IMG/VR virus record: IMGVR_UViG_3300023184_000488
Span: 1 to 25,041 of that record
Length of the DNA stretch: 25,041 bases
Reading direction: 5' to 3' (one strand)
DNA from: a virus
The notes beneath the pieces were generated by a model. That model searched no databases. It had not been told where the DNA came from and saw nothing but the letters and a program-made list of their open reading frames with translations. A program made the translations under genes and the position numbers. This document shows, one piece after another, positions 2,961-24,808 of this stretch. The number at the start of each line of letters is the position of its first letter. Positions within the stretch are counted from its first letter, which is position 1.

Positions 2961-3262
2961 TTTATCAATTAAAAAACACTATCGATGTTCACACTCCTAT
3001 TGGGTACGGAAAAGCAATCGCCTGGATCGATTACGGATCGGATACAAACACAGTTTGGAAAGTCGTACTATACGACACAGGTATGGTTAGGAACTTTTAC
3101 GATGATGACATTCTCGTATATCCCAACGCAATGGATGGAGGAGAAATCGATGAAGAGTTCTTCGTCAAAAGAGAGTTTAAGTATAATAACAAACAATTTA
3201 TAAAAGGGCTAAAAAACCATTTTAAACCGTATGAGTCAAGAGATAAAGGGGATGGAGAATAA
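2957..3262 (+). CDS. Hypothetical beta-rich early protein (101 aa)
   Basis: A 101-residue protein with a first half that reads as a small beta-barrel (IDVHTPIGYGKAIAWIDYG...WKVVLYDTGMVRNFYDDDILVYPN), like the SH3-type small proteins common in phages of this group. The second half is acidic and then basic. It is coupled to the upstream membrane peptide by an ATGA overlap, and its end overlaps the next frame by 32 nt. Function unknown. Confidence 0.65.
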   Translation: MIYQLKNTIDVHTPIGYGKAIAWIDYGSDTNTVWKVVLYDTGMVRNFYDDDILVYPNAMDGGEIDEEFFVKREFKYNNKQFIKGLKNHFKPYESRDKGDGE

Positions 3263-3464
3263 TATACCAGTAAGAATGGTGTTTATAGACAACAAGGAAG
3301 AAATACATTTTAAATCTATAGCAGCAGCTAGTAGGAAGTCTAAAGTGACAGCACAGAGCATTAGAGAGTCATTAAACCCTATTGCTAGGAAGAAGTTTAT
3401 GATTAAGCACTTAGACAAAGAGAGAGTAGTGGCTTTTAGAATCTTAAATCAAAATACAGTATAA
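3231..3464 (+). CDS. NUMOD1-like small DNA-binding protein
   Basis: The sequence FIDNKEEIHFKSIAAASRKSKVTAQSIRESL follows the NUMOD1 pattern (strand, 'F.S..eAar', then a helix-turn-helix 'v...sI...l'), the DNA-binding module usually attached to homing endonucleases. Here it stands alone, without HNH or GIY-YIG catalytic residues, in 77 residues. It may be a regulator or a remnant of a homing enzyme. An alternative start at 3252 (MENNIPVRM) follows AAGGGG, an unusual purine-rich stretch, and would shorten the overlap with the previous gene. It shares a stop/start overlap with the methyltransferase. Confidence 0.55.
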   Translation: MSQEIKGMENNIPVRMVFIDNKEEIHFKSIAAASRKSKVTAQSIRESLNPIARKKFMIKHLDKERVVAFRILNQNTV

Positions 3465-4387
3465 TGATAAATCAAATACACAACGAACCCTGTTTAGAAA
3501 CATTAAAAAAGATGCCAAATGATTTTTTGGATTGCGTGATTACTTCTCCACCATATTGGCAATTAAGAGATTATGGTTATGATGGACAATGGGGGTTAGA
3601 ACCTACATTTGAACAATACCTTGAACATTTATGGGAAATGATGGACGAAATTTATAGAGTTCTTAAACCAACTGGAACTTGCTGGATTAACTTAGGAGAT
3701 ACATATGGTGGCAATAATTCAAGAGCAAGTAATAATGGCAGAGCTGGATTTGGTAATGAAAGAGAAGCTATTGTTAATAGAGGGATATCAAAATGCTTAA
3801 TGTTAATACCACACCGATTTGCAATAGGTTGTATTGATAGAGGTTGGATTATGAGAAATGATATTATATGGGCAAAAAGAAATGGTATGCCAGAAAGTAC
3901 AAATGATAGATTTGCTAAAAAACACGAGTATATTTTTTTAATGACTAAGTCAAAGAAATATTATTTTGATTTAGATGCTATTAGGGATAAGCATATATGG
4001 GGTAATGATAAGAGGAATGATGGTAAAAGACACGAATATAAAGAAGGTGCTAAAGCTCACGATGATAAAAAAATTGGAATTAAAGCAGTTTCTTTTAATC
4101 CTTTAGGTAAAAATCCTGGCGATGTTAGTGACTTTTGGGATATTAAAACTAAACCATCTTCTGTAAAGCATTATGCTTCATATAATGTCGAATTAATAAC
4201 TAAACCTATTTTAGCTGGATGTCCAGAGGGTGGCTTAATTTACGATCCTTTTATGGGTAGTGGTACTACTGCTATTCATTCAATAATGAACAATAGAAAC
4301 TTCATAGGTAGTGAAATGAGTACAGAATATTTACAAATAGCTAATAAAAGGATTTTTGATGTGCAATCTCAACCAAAATTGTTTTAG
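3464..4387 (+). CDS. DNA methyltransferase (TSPPYW type, COG0863-like)
   Basis: This is an S-adenosylmethionine-dependent DNA amino-methyltransferase. The catalytic motif IV TSPPYW is at residues 27-32 and the SAM-binding motif I region DPFMGSGTTA is at about 260-269. This is the beta-class order, with motif IV first and the target-recognition region between. The S-P-P-Y form is usual in N4-cytosine enzymes but also occurs in some N6-adenine enzymes, so the base modified is uncertain. Length (307 aa) is normal. No restriction endonuclease partner is adjacent, so it is an orphan enzyme, most likely protecting phage DNA from host restriction. It closes the first early gene block, and a leader/terminator element follows directly. 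Confidence 0.9.
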   Translation: MINQIHNEPCLETLKKMPNDFLDCVITSPPYWQLRDYGYDGQWGLEPTFEQYLEHLWEMMDEIYRVLKPTGTCWINLGDTYGGNNSRASNNGRAGFGNEREAIVNRGISKCLMLIPHRFAIGCIDRGWIMRNDIIWAKRNGMPESTNDRFAKKHEYIFLMTKSKKYYFDLDAIRDKHIWGNDKRNDGKRHEYKEGAKAHDDKKIGIKAVSFNPLGKNPGDVSDFWDIKTKPSSVKHYASYNVELITKPILAGCPEGGLIYDPFMGSGTTAIHSIMNNRNFIGSEMSTEYLQIANKRIFDVQSQPKLF

Positions 4388-4395
4388 TATATTTG
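4388..4395 (+). promoter_or_regulatory. Bacteroidetes-type -7 promoter box (TATATTTG)
   Basis: TATATTTG matches the TAnnTTTG consensus and lies immediately after the methyltransferase stop, in the only sizeable gap in this part of the early region. Transcription would be expected to begin near 4401-4403. No good -33 TTG element is seen at normal spacing. The motif occurs by chance about once per kilobase per strand in such AT-rich DNA, so confidence rests on position. Confidence 0.45.
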
Positions 4396-4402
4396 TAATG
4401 TT

Positions 4403-4447
4403 ATGTACGAGATAACAATTAAAACTTTCTGCCCTAGGTGGCGTTAG
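4403..4447 (+). CDS. Putative 14-residue leader peptide ORF
   Basis: ATG at 4403 to TAG at 4445-4447 encodes MYEITIKTFCPRWR. It begins where a transcript from the 4388-4395 box would start and ends inside the 5' arm of the terminator-like hairpin that follows. The last codons (TGC CCT AGG TGG CGT) are uncommon types in this AT-rich genome, where ribosomes could pause. This is the layout of an attenuator leader peptide. Translation is not shown, and a 15-codon open frame can arise by chance. Confidence 0.35.
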   Translation: MYEITIKTFCPRWR

Positions 4448-4483
4448 AACTCGTACTTCTAGCAAAACCGATGGGCTTTTTTT
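4431..4483 (+). terminator. Intrinsic terminator / attenuator hairpin with U7
   Basis: A long imperfect hairpin: GCCC (4431-4434) pairs with GGGC (4473-4476), GGT with ACC (4437-4439/4467-4469), then after a 3x3 internal loop GTTAGAA with TTCTAGC (4443-4449/4457-4463, one G-U), closed by the loop CTCGTAC (4450-4456). T7 follows at 4477-4483. The loop is a perfect complement of GTACGAG at 4405-4411 near the probable 5' end of the RNA. Pairing those two, plus TAAC (4413-4416) with GTTA (4443-4446), would compete with the terminator. The initiator ATG at 4487 follows directly. Confidence 0.65.
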
Positions 4484-4486
4484 ATT

Positions 4487-5131
4487 ATGTATTACACCAC
4501 AATAATTCATCCAATTCGCAAATCCCTACATCTATCTTGTAATGAGTATTGTGTATTAGATAGCATCTACAAATTACAAAACAACGAATCTCATTGGTGC
4601 TATAAATCTAGAGAGAATATGGCTAAAGACCTTGACCTATCTAAACAAACTATTATAACAATAATAAAAAATCTTGTTGCTAGGGGCTTAGTAATGCAAA
4701 ATGATGTTACAAGGCATCTAAGAGCTACTAATGAGATATTTCCAAAGCTATTAAATGACCATAAAACACTAGAATACAACAAGAAAGATAATAGCTTTAC
4801 CATTGGTATAGAAACTTTACCTGATGAGTCAAGAAACTTTACCGAAAGTGGTAAAGAAACTTTACCCTATAATAACATATATATTGATACTAATAATACT
4901 AATAAAATATATAAGGATAAAGAAGCTTTTGTTAATACCATAGAATCCCATAAAGATAAACTTGGTAACCAATACCAATCATTTTTAGACTATTGGACTG
5001 AAGCAGATGCTAAAGGCAAGATGAGATACCAAGACCAAAAATTCTTTGACATAGCTAGAAGAGTAGGAACCTGGATAAAGAATAGTAAAAACTTTGAACC
5101 TAATACACCAACTAAAATAAAACTAAAATAA
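4487..5131 (+). CDS. Replication initiator / helicase-loader-like protein with N-terminal winged helix
   Basis: A 214-residue protein. Residues 12-85 form a winged helix-turn-helix (YCVLDSIYKLQN...MAKDLDLSKQTIITIIKNLVARGLV), a polar low-complexity linker covers about 95-145, and a C-terminal helical domain contains FLDYWTEADAKGKMRYQDQKFFDIARRVGTWIK. This two-domain plan and the gene directly in front of dnaB match phage initiator/loader proteins (lambda O or DnaD-like roles): the N-terminus binds the origin and the C-terminus recruits helicase. The linker DNA carries iterons. Its ATG sits 3 nt after the T7 tract of the upstream hairpin, so expression may depend on read-through. Its stop overlaps the dnaB start. 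Confidence 0.75.
   Translation: MYYTTIIHPIRKSLHLSCNEYCVLDSIYKLQNNESHWCYKSRENMAKDLDLSKQTIITIIKNLVARGLVMQNDVTRHLRATNEIFPKLLNDHKTLEYNKKDNSFTIGIETLPDESRNFTESGKETLPYNNIYIDTNNTNKIYKDKEAFVNTIESHKDKLGNQYQSFLDYWTEADAKGKMRYQDQKFFDIARRVGTWIKNSKNFEPNTPTKIKLK
4791..4925 (+). other. Candidate replication origin: iterons plus AT-rich region inside the initiator gene
   Basis: The 11-mer GAAACTTTACC occurs three times exactly at 4811-4821, 4833-4843 and 4856-4866, with a degenerate fourth (8/11) at 4791-4801. Starts are 20, 22 and 23 bp apart, about two helical turns, which puts all copies on one face. The last copy is half of a 17-bp dyad, GGTAAAG-AAA-CTTTACC (4850-4866). Immediately downstream, 4867-4925 is extremely AT-rich, as expected of an unwinding element. 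The same arrangement (iterons then AT-rich DNA within the linker of the initiator gene) is the lambda O/ori design. Confidence 0.65.
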
Positions 5132-6468
5132 TGGATGTAATAAACCTACCTAAAAACCTTGAGCTAGAAGAGAATATCCTAGGCTCAATCCTACTAGACA
5201 AAAGAGCTTTGCCTTTAGTAGTGAACTACTTAAACGAAGAAATATTCTACGATTTAAGGCACCAACTGATATTTAGAACTATTAAGCAGATGTATGATAA
5301 GAACATACAAATAGACTTAAGTACTGTTTTCCAACGACTTATAGATAATAAACACTCAGAAGAAGTAGGGGCCTTATACCTATCAAAGATTACGAATAGT
5401 GTCGTATCTACTGCACACCTAAACACCCACATAGAGGTAGTTATAGAATTATACAAGCGTAGAAAGTTAGCAACCTTTGGCCGACTAATGGAGGTATCGG
5501 CCTTTGATGGTGCTGAATCTACTGATGATACCCTAGCTACCTTTAGTAAACAACTTATGGGACTACAAGAGTTCGGAAATATATACGAAAAGACTATAGA
5601 CCAAATTATTATGCAGCTAAATGAAGGTCGTGATGCTGCTGTTAGTGGTCAGTTACTAGGCATAAACACAGGCTTTATGGAGCTTAATAACACCCTTTGC
5701 GGTTGGGTAGATCCTGACTTTGTTATCATAGCTGCTAGACCAGGAATGGGTAAGACTGCATTTATGCTTTCTAGTATCTATCACATAGCAATCCAAGGAG
5801 GCATCGCTACGGCCATTTTTAGCCTCGAAATGAGCTCCAATCAGTTAGTTGAAAGGTTAGAGTCAATTAGCTCTGAACTGCCCTTAAAACGTCTTAGAAT
5901 GAATTTACTGACCGATAACGAAAAAGTTCACTTAATGCGAACTGACGACAAGATACTTACTTCCCCCATCTACATAGAGGATATGGGCGGTATTAGTGTA
6001 ACCCAGCTACGAGCCAAAGCAACTATTCTTAAACAGAAGTATGGCATAAAGATTATCTTTATCGATTACCTTCAACTTATGAGTGGTACTGGCAAGTCAA
6101 ACCAAAACCGAGAGCAAGAGGTATCCTACATTAGTAGGAGCCTAAAAGCACTTGCCAAAGAGTTGGAAGTACCTATTATCGCCCTATCCCAATTATCACG
6201 AAGAGTAGAAGAACGAGCCGATAAGATGCCTCAGTTATCTGACCTTAGAGAATCAGGATCAATAGAACAAGATGCTGATGCTGTGATAATGCTTATGCGA
6301 CCAGGCTACTATGAACAAATTGAGTCAGTAGAGATTGGTGGTAGAGAATATTCTCCAAGTGATTTAGTAGTTTGTAAGGTTGAGAAGAATAGACACGGAG
6401 CCACTAAAAACCTAGCATTAAGATTTTTACCTGAAACAATGACCTTCCAAGATTATAGTTTATTATAA
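5131..6468 (+). CDS. dnaB: Replicative DNA helicase DnaB
   Basis: Phage-encoded DnaB-family hexameric 5'-3' helicase. The N-terminal DnaB domain (LELEENILGSILLDKRAL, residues 10-27) is present, and the RecA-like domain carries Walker A RPGMGKTA (203-210), FSLEMS (230-235), Walker B IIFIDYLQLM (308-317) and ALSQLSR (351-357) with the following DLRESGSIEQDAD sensor/arginine-finger region. At 445 aa it is of normal length for DnaB. It overlaps the initiator gene by 1 nt, which fits co-translation with its loader, and it would unwind DNA at the candidate origin just upstream. No primase is recognisable in the window, so the host primase is probably used. Confidence 0.95.
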   Translation: MDVINLPKNLELEENILGSILLDKRALPLVVNYLNEEIFYDLRHQLIFRTIKQMYDKNIQIDLSTVFQRLIDNKHSEEVGALYLSKITNSVVSTAHLNTHIEVVIELYKRRKLATFGRLMEVSAFDGAESTDDTLATFSKQLMGLQEFGNIYEKTIDQIIMQLNEGRDAAVSGQLLGINTGFMELNNTLCGWVDPDFVIIAARPGMGKTAFMLSSIYHIAIQGGIATAIFSLEMSSNQLVERLESISSELPLKRLRMNLLTDNEKVHLMRTDDKILTSPIYIEDMGGISVTQLRAKATILKQKYGIKIIFIDYLQLMSGTGKSNQNREQEVSYISRSLKALAKELEVPIIALSQLSRRVEERADKMPQLSDLRESGSIEQDADAVIMLMRPGYYEQIESVEIGGREYSPSDLVVCKVEKNRHGATKNLALRFLPETMTFQDYSLL

Positions 6469-6892: not shown

Positions 6893-7381
6893 ATGAAACA
6901 GATACCAGGTTATGAAAACTATAAAATAACAGAATATGGAGTTATTTATAGTGATTATACAAATTCAGTAAAAAGAACGTCATTGCATAGGCAAGGTTAT
7001 TTTTTGGTTGGTTTGTATAAAAATAAAAAAGAAACAAAATTGCTTGTTCATCGTTTAGTAGCATTAACTTATTTAGATAACTTAAATGAATATAAATATG
7101 TTAATCATAAGGATGGAAATAAAAAAAATAACCATATAAGCAATTTAGAATGGGTTACAAGTTCAGAAAACCAAAAACACGCTTATAAAAATGGTCTAAA
7201 AATTGCTAGTAGAAAAACAATTAATAACAAGATTGTTATAAATATAGAAAGTGGCATCTATTATAATTCAGTAAAAGAGGCATCTTTAGTATATGGATTA
7301 AATAAAAGCCATTTAGCTCAAATGTTAAGAGGGCAAATCAGCAATAAAACTAATTTAGTTTATGCAACGCAAGGGGCCTAG
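6893..7381 (+). CDS. HNH homing endonuclease (NUMOD4-HNH-NUMOD1)
   Basis: A free-standing HNH homing nuclease of 162 residues. NUMOD4 occupies about 1-45 (IPGYENYKITEYGVIYS, GYFLVGLYKN). The HNH core carries VHRLVA (His53) and VNHKDGNKKNNHISNLEWVTSSEN (71-93; His72, Asn79/80 and His81, NLEW). A C-terminal NUMOD1 DNA-binding module spans about 113-160. It cuts a specific site in alleles lacking the insertion, and repair copies the gene in. The insertion seems to have split the neighbouring nuclease-like gene, since a matching start fragment lies just upstream. Its last 20 nt overlap the start of the next gene in another frame. No group I intron is evident. Confidence 0.9.
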   Translation: MKQIPGYENYKITEYGVIYSDYTNSVKRTSLHRQGYFLVGLYKNKKETKLLVHRLVALTYLDNLNEYKYVNHKDGNKKNNHISNLEWVTSSENQKHAYKNGLKIASRKTINNKIVINIESGIYYNSVKEASLVYGLNKSHLAQMLRGQISNKTNLVYATQGA

Positions 7382-7739: not shown

Positions 7740-8468
7740 ATGAAAAGAGTAATTAATTTTAGTGGGGGAAAGACAAGTGCTTTAATGACAATTTTAAATT
7801 ATCGTGAAGGTGACTTAGTAATATTTGCAGATACAGGTAGAGAGCATAGTAAGACTTATAAGTTTATTAATGACTTTGAGGCCCACGAAAATATTCCTGT
7901 TATTAGAGTACAATACGAAGGTGGATTTAGAGGTATGCTTGAGCATAATAAATGGAAACATATACCTAATAGAGTCAAAAGGTCTTGCACTTTAGAGCTG
8001 AAGATAAAAACAGCCAAGAGATATTTAAGAAAAAACTATGGCAAACAAAATTATGAATGGTTAGTAGGCTTTAGGTCAGACGAAGAACGCAGAGTAAAAG
8101 GATATGAACAAAGACAAGCTTACATACACCCAAGATTCCCTTTATATGATGCAGGAATAGATAAGGCTAAAGTAAATGACTATTGGAGTAAAAAACCTTA
8201 TACCTTAGAAATACCTGCTATCTTAGGTAATTGTACTTTATGTTTTCTTAAAGGTAAGAATGCGATAATAAATATTCTTAGAAGCTATCCTAAATTAGCT
8301 GATGAATGGATAGAAGATGAAGAATTAAGTAAACTGAAAGGGGGGGGGCATACTTACTTTCAGGATACGACTTATAAGCACTTATTAATGATGGCACAAA
8401 ATGATTTATTTAAGGGCCAAGATTTAACAGACTTGACTCCATCTTTTAATTGCTCGTGTACATCTTAA
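7740..8468 (+). CDS. PP-loop ATPase, PAPS-reductase/DndC-like
   Basis: A 242-residue member of the adenine-nucleotide alpha-hydrolase (PP-loop) superfamily. The pyrophosphatase loop SGGKTSA is at residues 8-14, followed by the strand LVIFADTGREHSKTY (26-40). Five cysteines (C83, C165-x2-C168, C238-x-C240) suggest a metal or Fe-S site, as in PAPS reductases, DndC and tRNA sulfur enzymes. PAPS-reductase-like genes are common in phages, but their substrate is mostly unknown. Sulfur assimilation or a nucleotide/DNA modification are both possible. A run of nine G at 8340-8348 encodes the GGG at residues 201-203 and is unusual in this AT-rich genome. It starts 9 nt after the preceding gene. Confidence 0.75.
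   Translation: MKRVINFSGGKTSALMTILNYREGDLVIFADTGREHSKTYKFINDFEAHENIPVIRVQYEGGFRGMLEHNKWKHIPNRVKRSCTLELKIKTAKRYLRKNYGKQNYEWLVGFRSDEERRVKGYEQRQAYIHPRFPLYDAGIDKAKVNDYWSKKPYTLEIPAILGNCTLCFLKGKNAIINILRSYPKLADEWIEDEELSKLKGGGHTYFQDTTYKHLLMMAQNDLFKGQDLTDLTPSFNCSCTS
8340..8348 (+). repeat. G9 homopolymer inside the PAPS-reductase-like gene
   Basis: Nine consecutive G residues, the only long G run I see in the window. They encode three glycines. Such tracts slip during replication and sequencing; loss or gain of one G would truncate the enzyme about 40 residues before its end and remove the C238/C240 pair. Confidence 0.9.
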
Positions 8469-8490: not shown

Positions 8491-8498
8491 TAATTTTG
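8491..8498 (+). promoter_or_regulatory. Possible promoter box (TAATTTTG) before the VRR-NUC gene
   Basis: TAATTTTG fits TAnnTTTG and lies in a 33-nt gap between genes, 3 nt before an ATG. Just upstream, two copies of the self-complementary AATATATT (8471-8478, 8482-8489) can pair as a hairpin. No -33 TTG at normal spacing is visible. This is a weak candidate, because the motif is frequent by chance in such DNA. Confidence 0.3.
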
Positions 8499-8501
8499 GT
8501 A

Positions 8502-8864
8502 ATGGCATACCAATCAGCAAGTGAATTAACAAAGATGATGTTAGACTTTTTAAAGGATGGTGGCAATGAAGTATGGAGGAACAATAACCTAGCTGTTAGA
8601 GGTAGGGCCTTCATAGGTAGAAAAGGAGTTCCTGACATTATTGGTTACAATAAAAAGTATGGATACTTTGTATGCTGTGAGATTAAAGCGATTGGCGATA
8701 GAATGTCAGCAGATCAAATGGTATTCTTAGAAGAGTTAGCAATGGCAGGAGGGACTGCAATGCTTTGTCAACAGGTAAGAGATGAAACAATACAAGTAAA
8801 AATATATAGAGATGGCGAAAACGAAGACTGGAGATTCGAGAAAGGTGAGCTTCGGAAAGCGTAA
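8502..8864 (+). CDS. VRR-NUC domain nuclease
   Basis: A compact stand-alone VRR-NUC protein (PD-(D/E)XK superfamily). Near residues 43-62 GVPDIIGYNKKYGYFVCCEIK gives the D and ExK metal-binding residues, followed by the helix RMSADQMVFLEELAMAGGTAML typical of the family. Stand-alone phage VRR-NUC proteins have been linked to Holliday-junction resolution and repair. I place the start at the ATG at 8502 (120 aa), which follows an AT-rich gap; a TTG frame extends only two codons further. A small basic gene overlaps its end in another frame (8812). Confidence 0.85.
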   Translation: MAYQSASELTKMMLDFLKDGGNEVWRNNNLAVRGRAFIGRKGVPDIIGYNKKYGYFVCCEIKAIGDRMSADQMVFLEELAMAGGTAMLCQQVRDETIQVKIYRDGENEDWRFEKGELRKA

Positions 8865-8937
8865 AGAAGGTAAAGCAAAGAAATCATTTAATAAACACGA
8901 GGGTAAACCTAAAAAATATAGGGGACAAGGAAGATAA
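8812..8937 (+). CDS. 41-residue highly basic protein
   Basis: The frame starts at an ATG inside the end of the VRR-NUC gene and reads MAKTKTGDSRKVSFGKRKEG, then KAKKSFNKHEGKPKKYRGQGR. About 40% of residues are Lys or Arg, with no hydrophobic core. It is probably an unfolded nucleic-acid-binding or structural tail peptide. The 53-nt out-of-frame overlap upstream and the TAATG overlap with the next gene (8937) both fit an expressed phage gene. Similar small 'SFGKR...KKYRGQG' proteins are familiar from Bacteroidetes phages, but no function is known to me. Confidence 0.65.
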   Translation: MAKTKTGDSRKVSFGKRKEGKAKKSFNKHEGKPKKYRGQGR

Positions 8938-9449
8938 TGGCAATAGTATACCAACATAGAAGGAAAGACGATAATTCTGTATTTTATATAGGAATAGGAA
9001 TTGATATAAAAAGAGCTTACTCTAAAAAAAATAGAAATACTCATTGGCAAAATATTTGTAATAAATATGGATATGAGATTGATATTTTGTTTACAGGCAT
9101 TAGTTATGAAATGGCTTGTATAATAGAATATGGGTTAATTATTGATTTGGGTAGATTAGATTTAGGTACAGGAAGGCTTGTTAATTTAACAGATGGTGGT
9201 AAGGGTTCTATAAACTTTAAACACTCCAAAAAAACTATAGAAAAAATTAGTGGCAAAAGTGGTTATAAAAGTCATAGGTCTAAAGAAGTTGGCCAATTTG
9301 ATTTAAAAACAAATGAACTAATTTGCCTATTCGGATCAACTAGGGAGGCTTATAAGCTTACTGGTGTAAATTTTTCAAGCATATCACTATGCTGTAACAA
9401 TAATGTAAACTATAATCACGCAGGTGGTTATAAATGGAAATATATATAA
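8937..9449 (+). CDS. GIY-YIG-like homing endonuclease with NUMOD3/NUMOD1
   Basis: A 170-residue nuclease of the GIY-YIG type in a variant form: VYQHR (4-8) replaces GIY and FYIGIG (16-21) holds the YIG. The catalytic Arg is probably R26 in KRAY, the Glu is E64 in IIEYGLI, and the Asn is N83 in NLTDGG. A NUMOD3 motif (HSKKTIEKISGKSG, 96-109) and a NUMOD1 module (about 118-168, ending GGYKWKYI) follow for DNA binding. It is a mobile gene inserted among small early genes: its ATG overlaps the stop of the basic protein, and the next gene begins 11 nt after its own stop. Confidence 0.85.
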   Translation: MAIVYQHRRKDDNSVFYIGIGIDIKRAYSKKNRNTHWQNICNKYGYEIDILFTGISYEMACIIEYGLIIDLGRLDLGTGRLVNLTDGGKGSINFKHSKKTIEKISGKSGYKSHRSKEVGQFDLKTNELICLFGSTREAYKLTGVNFSSISLCCNNNVNYNHAGGYKWKYI

Positions 9450-10123: not shown

Positions 10124-10150
10124 TTTGTGTGTTTTTTTGAAATAAAGGTA

Positions 10151-10179
10151 AGCCTCTCGTTTCTACGAGGGGCTTTTTT
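10151..10179 (+). terminator. Rho-independent terminator of the rightward early operon
   Basis: AGCCTCTCGT (10151-10160) pairs with ACGAGGGGCT (10165-10174) in a 10-bp stem with one T-G wobble and the 4-nt loop TTCT. It is followed by T6 (10174-10179). It lies 27 nt after the last + strand gene at the convergence of the two arms. Confidence 0.9.
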
Positions 10180-24097: not shown

Positions 24098-24808
24098 CTA
24101 AAATTTAGTGTATGACCATTTAAAGCCTCCTGATGATGGAATCTTACCTAAAGCAGCAGAGCTTATGTTTTTTATACCTAAATATCTTTGAGCTTCAGAG
24201 ACATTTCTATATTCATCTATAAACATACCATTCATAGTATATTGGTAAACTACCCTTGATTTTCCGCTATTAAAACTTTGCTTGATTTTAGTAGCTTCTG
24301 ATGCTTTGGGCCTAAACTTACCTTTTTGATTTTGTGGTAGTTTAGCTATATGTTCAGCAGTAAACTTTTTGCCCTTATTTGATTCTGATATTCTTTTCTT
24401 AGTTTCTTCGCTATGTTTTTTACCCATAGCAGAATTTCTTAATTTGTCAATCCACACTTGGTCGAATATTCTTCCTTTTCTAGCTTCAGACATTTTAGCC
24501 TTTGATTCATCACTTATAAAACCACTTTTACCTTTGGCTTCGGTAAGTCTACAGTTAAGTCCATTCTCTCCAATAACATTATAAAAGTCTTGCCAATACC
24601 TTTCTCGTTCATTAAGATTATGTACTAAACATTCTTCAATTAGCACAATATGATGTGCATCATAACCATACTTTTGCAATGAATTGTAAATCCTTACTTG
24701 ATATGGCTTTGCACCATTCTTGTAATAGTTTTTTCTTTTAGTAAAATTGGTTGTTTGGCCAATGTAAATTTTGCCACTTGGGCTTGTGATTTTATATATA
24801 CCTATCAT
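24098..24808 (-). CDS. GIY-YIG homing endonuclease (NUMOD3, NUMOD1)
   Basis: A 236-residue free-standing homing nuclease. The GIY-YIG core has GIYKITSPSGKIYIGQT (3-19), a basic segment TKRKNYY with the catalytic-type Arg/Lys, the Glu in NERERYWQ (67-73), and Asn in GLNCRL (83-88). Two or three NUMOD3 copies (SDESKAKMSEARKGR, HSEETKKRISESNKGKKF, and TAEHIAKLPQNQKGKF) and a C-terminal NUMOD1 (VVYQYTMNGMFIDEYRNVSEAQRYLGI...GGFKWSY) bind DNA. It is inserted between the major capsid gene and the connector gene, a frequent target. Its ATG follows directly after the T6 tract of a terminator. Confidence 0.9.
   Translation of the reverse strand: MIGIYKITSPSGKIYIGQTTNFTKRKNYYKNGAKPYQVRIYNSLQKYGYDAHHIVLIEECLVHNLNERERYWQDFYNVIGENGLNCRLTEAKGKSGFISDESKAKMSEARKGRIFDQVWIDKLRNSAMGKKHSEETKKRISESNKGKKFTAEHIAKLPQNQKGKFRPKASEATKIKQSFNSGKSRVVYQYTMNGMFIDEYRNVSEAQRYLGIKNISSAALGKIPSSGGFKWSYTKF

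Follow-up and report, generated by a model that had tools for sequence, protein, structure and literature searches.

The replication initiator gene of an uncultured phage, represented by a window of 25,041 nucleotides (the whole stretch of DNA analysed, positions 1 to 25,041 of IMG/VR record IMGVR_UViG_3300023184_000488), is directly preceded by an RNA of approximately 84 nt whose two hairpins carry complementary loops. This kissing RNA is almost certainly a real conserved family, as judged from aligned relatives; it has no Rfam entry, immediately precedes the replication initiator in several uncultured phage groups, and suggests a previously undescribed RNA switch controlling DNA replication in phages. 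The RNA likely acts in cis as the leader of the replication operon, and the reading preferred here, to which we give a probability of about 0.5, is an attenuator latched by the kissing contact, with partial termination as its main output. In the chief rival reading this fold controls translation or mRNA stability instead; the most interesting rival is an activity in trans like that of P4. If the inference is right, the element would be a main DNA-replication switch in these phages and would also provide a natural set of orthogonal kissing loops.

All elements of the leader lie on the + strand of the window. A methylase stop codon ends at 4387, directly before a putative -7 promoter box, TATATTTG (4388-4395), which reads as the TAnnTTTG box of Bacteroidetes type. 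Hairpin H1 (4399-4417) has the stem TGTTAT/ATAACA and the loop GTACGAG (4405-4411), and its five core pairs all covary; as RNA the core is GUUAU-GUACGAG-AUAAC, with GUACGAG as the entire 7-nt loop. An A/U-rich linker (4418-4430), with an AACUU-type motif according to column conservation, connects H1 to hairpin H2 (4431-4476), a terminator-like, long interrupted stem-loop identified from its fold and covariation. H2 consists of an outer stem GCCC/GGGC (4431-4434/4473-4476), mid pairs GGU/ACC, an inner stem GTTAGAA/TTCTAGC (4443-4449/4457-4463) and CTCGTAC (4450-4456; CUCGUAC in the RNA) as its complete loop, which matches the H1 loop in perfect complementarity. Immediately 3' of H2 follows a U7 tract (4477-4483), a candidate terminator-like and/or ribosome landing region. 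The ATG of the presumably controlled gene, at 4487, stands 10 nt past H2 and 3 nt past U7; it opens an HTH_36 replication initiator (4487-5131; matches to PF13730 and to PHROG replication-initiation families), whose stop codon is overlapped in the window ORFs by the DnaB replicative helicase gene downstream in the same operon (5131-6468; PF03796/PF00772). The elements named in the initial annotation, i.e. the TATATTTG box, GTACGAG, H2, U7 and the ATG at 4487, are all located where it had placed them.

The predicted contact is loop-to-loop (kissing), with 7 bp between two hairpins of one RNA. That annotation had recognised the complementarity, which covaries in every member, but had taken GUACGAG for a free 5' segment, whereas it forms the H1 loop. 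The proposal that this pairing, together with UAAC/GUUA, competes with the terminator is not supported, as the loops of two hairpins are able to coexist, and the UAAC/GUUA complementarity is not retained in other alleles. In the single window sequence, the leader RNA has a minimum free energy of -20.5 kcal/mol (z -2.1). In dinucleotide shuffles of the window, a pair of hairpins that have stems of 5 bp or more and fully complementary 7-nt loops inside 90 nt turns up 0.02 times per shuffle; the window itself has one such site, which registers on either strand owing to its self-complementarity. The single-sequence z-score is weak and insufficient alone, so the proof of an RNA lies in its conservation in relatives.

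A search of viral contigs with the initiator yielded 36 loci. Close relatives possess an identical or nearly identical RNA behind adjacent upstream sequence from different genes, and distant relatives have the same plan before the initiator in different sequences. Among the members 11 loop alleles are observed, e.g. ATGCGAC/GTCGCAT, GTCGGAT/ATCCGAC and GTTGCAG/CTGCAAC. One allele has 6-nt loops on both sides (CCGUAC/GUACGG), the length having changed in concert. The covariation check proposed at the outset finds matched changes of the loop pairing throughout the members. Since the first model was derived from sequences found by the kissing scan, the preferred count comes from a covariance model of both hairpins built without the loop-loop pairs and applied to 100 loci fetched solely because they encode related replisome organizers (protein similarity). 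This model gives 96 strong matches in 92 of the 100 loci, and loop complementarity is perfect in 96 of 96 matches (55 distinct sequences).

In the alignment of 85 sequences, standard pairs make up 97.9% of cells. Changes on both sides are seen in 23 of 24 pairs, among them six of the seven kissing pairs, and the covariation score of 0.776 compares with 0.195 for shuffles and a maximum of 0.165 for slid versions. The members share kinship and the shuffles therefore overstate independence, so that the 11 unlike loop pairs are more telling. The kissing helix is 94% paired in this alignment; the failures arise because alleles with inserted or shortened loops are shifted in the alignment, though complementary. 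On the + strand G-U pairs are common and A-C rare, which identifies the functional molecule as an RNA of that strand. In two distant phages (loci L301 and L302) a different pair of hairpins, longer and unlike those above, lies some 110 nt ahead of the ORF at 3001 (organizer ATG); their loops are complementary by inspection and differ in a matched way (GAGCGAC/GTCGCTC and GAACGAC/GTCGTTC). Not flagged by the automatic kissing scan and a lead only, they may represent another class built on this design, although nothing in their look relates them to the first.

Of 85 members, 82 have a TAnnTTTG box in the 32 nt that precede H1, compared with 2.9% of control positions, and a T-rich stretch lies 23-25 nt upstream of it. 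The consensus of the Bacteroidetes primary sigma factor has TAnnTTTG at -7 and TTTG or a T-rich stretch near -33 (PMC7366714). By sequence the element is a promoter of this type, in agreement with the initial annotation of a structured RNA with its own promoter, and mainly from this box the host of these uncultured phages is probably a member of the Bacteroidetes. Transcription would start at about 4399-4403, and most members have H1 at the 5' end expected from this. The distance from the H2 outer stem to the ATG is 9-13 nt in 85 of 86 members, a space too short for a second promoter, so any initiator mRNA transcribed from the TATATTTG-type promoter must have the RNA as its leader. Three loci (L297-L299) possess the same organizer type and TATATTTG without the RNA, with the ATG close behind, so that the RNA is a removable cassette between promoter and start codon. 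The reading as a cis leader draws further on covariation, seen in the two hairpins as well as in the loop-loop helix, and on the occurrence of the RNA mostly in one copy per phage, before three initiator types.

H2 and the tract behind it resemble an intrinsic terminator in sequence, i.e. a G/C-rich hairpin with a U tract, and termination itself is predicted from this likeness. Across 85 distinct members the positions +3 to +6 after H2 are almost always U; some members have A or C at +1/+2, and in some alleles the tract is interrupted (CUAUUUUAUUUAUG, CACUUUUAUUUUAUG). In the proposed mechanism, RNA polymerase would start at the foot of H1, and the emerging H2 loop would dock on the H1 loop, forming a latch that would stabilise H2 and the surrounding fold. 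With the latch closed, many transcripts would end at the U tract before the ATG, and initiator and dnaB expression would be low; with the latch unformed, or opened by a phage or host factor, read-through would occur and the replication proteins would be made. A role in read-through into the initiator and dnaB, as suggested in the initial annotation, is thus rated likely. The latch-opening step is a proposal: the covariation scan of all column pairs finds no conserved alternative or antiterminator helix. Interrupted U tracts would weaken termination, and together with this result they keep confidence in attenuation only moderate. Since the fold needs only loop complementarity, the loops can change freely in sequence and may thereby mark specificity.

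The closely kept spacing to the ATG is also compatible with control at the level of translation. The latched leader may act on translation or mRNA stability, by protecting the 5' end or by masking a ribosome landing site, which would be the U-rich tract of a Bacteroidetes mRNA without a Shine-Dalgarno sequence. The position of H1 at the inferred 5' end and the interruption of the tract in several alleles are likewise in favour of this explanation, which is nevertheless rather unlikely, because at +3 to +6 the tract is U in nearly all members, as for a terminator, and not an A/U mixture.

Attenuation by a latched leader would place this RNA beside several known systems. In satellite phage P4, replication genes are kept off by premature termination via short RNA pairing (as summarised in PMC4825925). 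The P4 CI RNA with seqA/seqC is similar in that a short RNA-RNA pairing in the leader region restrains phage replication genes, but it is an antisense RNA that undergoes processing and targets two sites, whereas here, as known from sequence alone, both partners are hairpin loops of a compact 84-nt leader before the initiator. In plasmid pT181, transcription of rep is attenuated by the antisense RNAI pairing with the leader (PMC5703833), and in engineered pT181 attenuators changes of loop and upper stem can yield orthogonal pairs (PMC3753616). Both cases control a replication initiator through a terminator in the mRNA leader; pT181, however, requires a counter-transcribed RNA, whereas here the complement is built into the leader. 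A search for an antisense promoter found TAnnTTTG on the opposite strand in 5 of 86 members and in 2 of 86 in a control stretch, i.e. no enrichment, and antisense control was rejected. The kissing leader resembles P4 and pT181 in place and logic, as far as the analogy reaches, and matches no described family found. Lysine and purine riboswitches are cis leaders with a fold held by contact between two hairpin loops. They share with the present RNA a leader folded through loop-loop contact, but here the whole loops are Watson-Crick complements that vary freely, one loop caps a terminator-like hairpin, and neither a conserved ligand core nor an Rfam match is present. ColE1 RNAI/RNAII form kissing complexes of fully complementary 7-nt loops, in which loop changes create new specificity. 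Full complementarity of 7-nt loops, with loop change as a route to specificity, is the common feature, the difference being that ColE1 uses two RNAs from opposite strands and the present system a single RNA.

The RNA is matched in 76 of 80 contigs searched whole, 72 of them with a single copy and four with two copies, which carry different loops. The second copies are located at 4620-4704 (L328), 2854-2938 (L382), 3936-4020 (L384) and 4782-4866 (L387), with the loop pair GTGAGAT/ATCTCAC where it was read. An HNH-type endonuclease gene follows the second copy in L328 and L382 (NUMOD4 and HNH_3 confirmed for L382), as if the endonuclease carried its own leader cassette. The genes after the RNA are initiators of unlike types (HTH_36, Lin1244_N, DUF1376-like) and occasionally an HNH gene or a methylase. 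DNA methylases of different kinds also flank the cassette (3464-4387 in the window, 2378-2992 in L028, 1970-2608 in L033) and appear to have been inserted on both of its sides.

Rfam 15 gives no match above the gathering threshold for the window and ten loci with other alleles, and a relaxed Rfam search of 4300-4560 gives a chance match only. The RNA was not found in Bacteroidota genomes (296 + 395 + 395, a few counted twice; about 1,080), which is weak evidence of absence, as few candidates were scored per genome and the search had no positive control. Bacterial genome contigs contain 78 H2-like matches, none with a kissing partner, and no match to the initiator. Among phages with related initiators, the RNA is absent from Flavobacterium phage 1/32, a Porphyromonas phage, Riemerella phage CRP5, Enterococcus EF62phi and one faecal phage. 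A blastn search of INPHARED with the RNA returns chance-level matches only. The literature searched, from which most subscription journals were out of reach, holds no description of the kissing RNA.

The leader cassette is, according to sequence comparisons, exchanged between phages. Among contig pairs with at least 85% identical flanks, the loops differ in 37 of 89 pairs compared by the upstream flank and in 67 of 160 pairs compared by the downstream flank. L029 and L083 have three differences outside the loops, both of which are replaced and mutually matching; L377 and L334 have zero stem differences and three changes per loop. Near-identical initiators occur with different loops in the pairs L031/L032 and L035/L037, so that the loops are not matched to the initiator protein and change as a unit. 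By analogy with P4 or plasmid copy-control RNAs, the loop alleles may be specificity tags. In a bolder reading, which we rate as rather unlikely, the loop pair is an exchangeable tag: each phage would carry one of at least 11 self-complementary alleles, swapped by recombination, and its leader would avoid pairing with other leaders in the same cell, while free leader would also act on leaders of its own type. If true, phage replication would be governed by a self/non-self or copy-control code made of RNA only. Because the alleles are exchanged so cleanly, the question whether related phages exclude one another through RNA is open to direct test.

The same observations bear on a small RNA of 80 nt that would act in trans, its loops pairing with those of same-allele leaders, for copy control or exclusion as in P4 CI. 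It would account for the RNA's own promoter and terminator-like end, for discrete loop alleles that differ between like flanks and within two-copy contigs, and for loops replaced in concert on almost unchanged stems (L029/L083, L377/L334). We regard it as improbable because both partners reside within one molecule, where the intramolecular kiss should win, because ordinary phage mosaicism also predicts allele shuffling, and because the loops of some alleles differ by a single pair.

A few positions are conserved: within the loops, position 2 is U with few exceptions and position 6 is invariably A, the closing pair is nearly always U-A in H1 and A-U in H2, and the inner internal loop retains a G and an A by column conservation. 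The column-pair scan finds no pairing partner for the linker 4418-4430. In a riboswitch-like leader sensing a ligand or protein, the kiss would be architectural and conserved internal-loop nucleotides would bind the signal, the candidates being G in column 54 and A in column 81 (alignment A6) and the AACUU linker. Freely varying loops beside few, nearly invariant unpaired positions are known from loop-loop riboswitches, but the conserved unpaired nucleotides are very few, Rfam offers no match, and initiators of different families follow the same RNA, so that the sensor would not be the initiator; this explanation is very unlikely.

Hardly credible is an element acting as DNA, i.e. an origin, a cruciform or an initiator binding site: it would adjoin the initiator gene, with the loops as a 7-bp inverted repeat, but G-U pairs are frequent on one strand only, the loop sequence is independent of the initiator, and promoter box, U tract and ATG distance are left unexplained. 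An ordinary terminator of the upstream methylase operon, to which a hairpin with U7 after the methylase gene would correspond, or a leader-peptide attenuator is the least probable alternative, as the cassette stays the same behind differing upstream genes, relatives have a broken peptide frame or none, and H1 and the kiss remain unexplained, as do the promoter box and the fixed ATG distance by a simple terminator. The leaderless leader peptide of the initial annotation, a short ORF over the terminator, has an in-frame stop in L103 (ATG TAC GAG ATA ACA ATT TAA) and a 1-nt deletion in L037, and lacks its start codon in most alleles; the suggested remnant gene with a +1 shift falls together with this frame.

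Other features of the window include a small protein in the early operon (1126-1521) with the DnaA C-terminal DNA-binding domain alone (PF08299); similar small DnaA-like genes precede the RNA in L139 and L151. Candidate homing endonucleases are located at 6893-7381 (HNH_3 and a weak NUMOD4), 24098-24808 (GIY-YIG with NUMOD1/3) and 8937-9449 (GIY-YIG-like by eye, no Pfam match). A PAPS-reductase-domain protein (7740-8468) adjoins a VRR-NUC nuclease (8496-8864), and the two may belong to a module for DNA modification or nuclease activity. A strong terminator-like hairpin of 11 pairs with a UUCU loop region (10150-10175) separates the rightward early genes from the leftward late genes.
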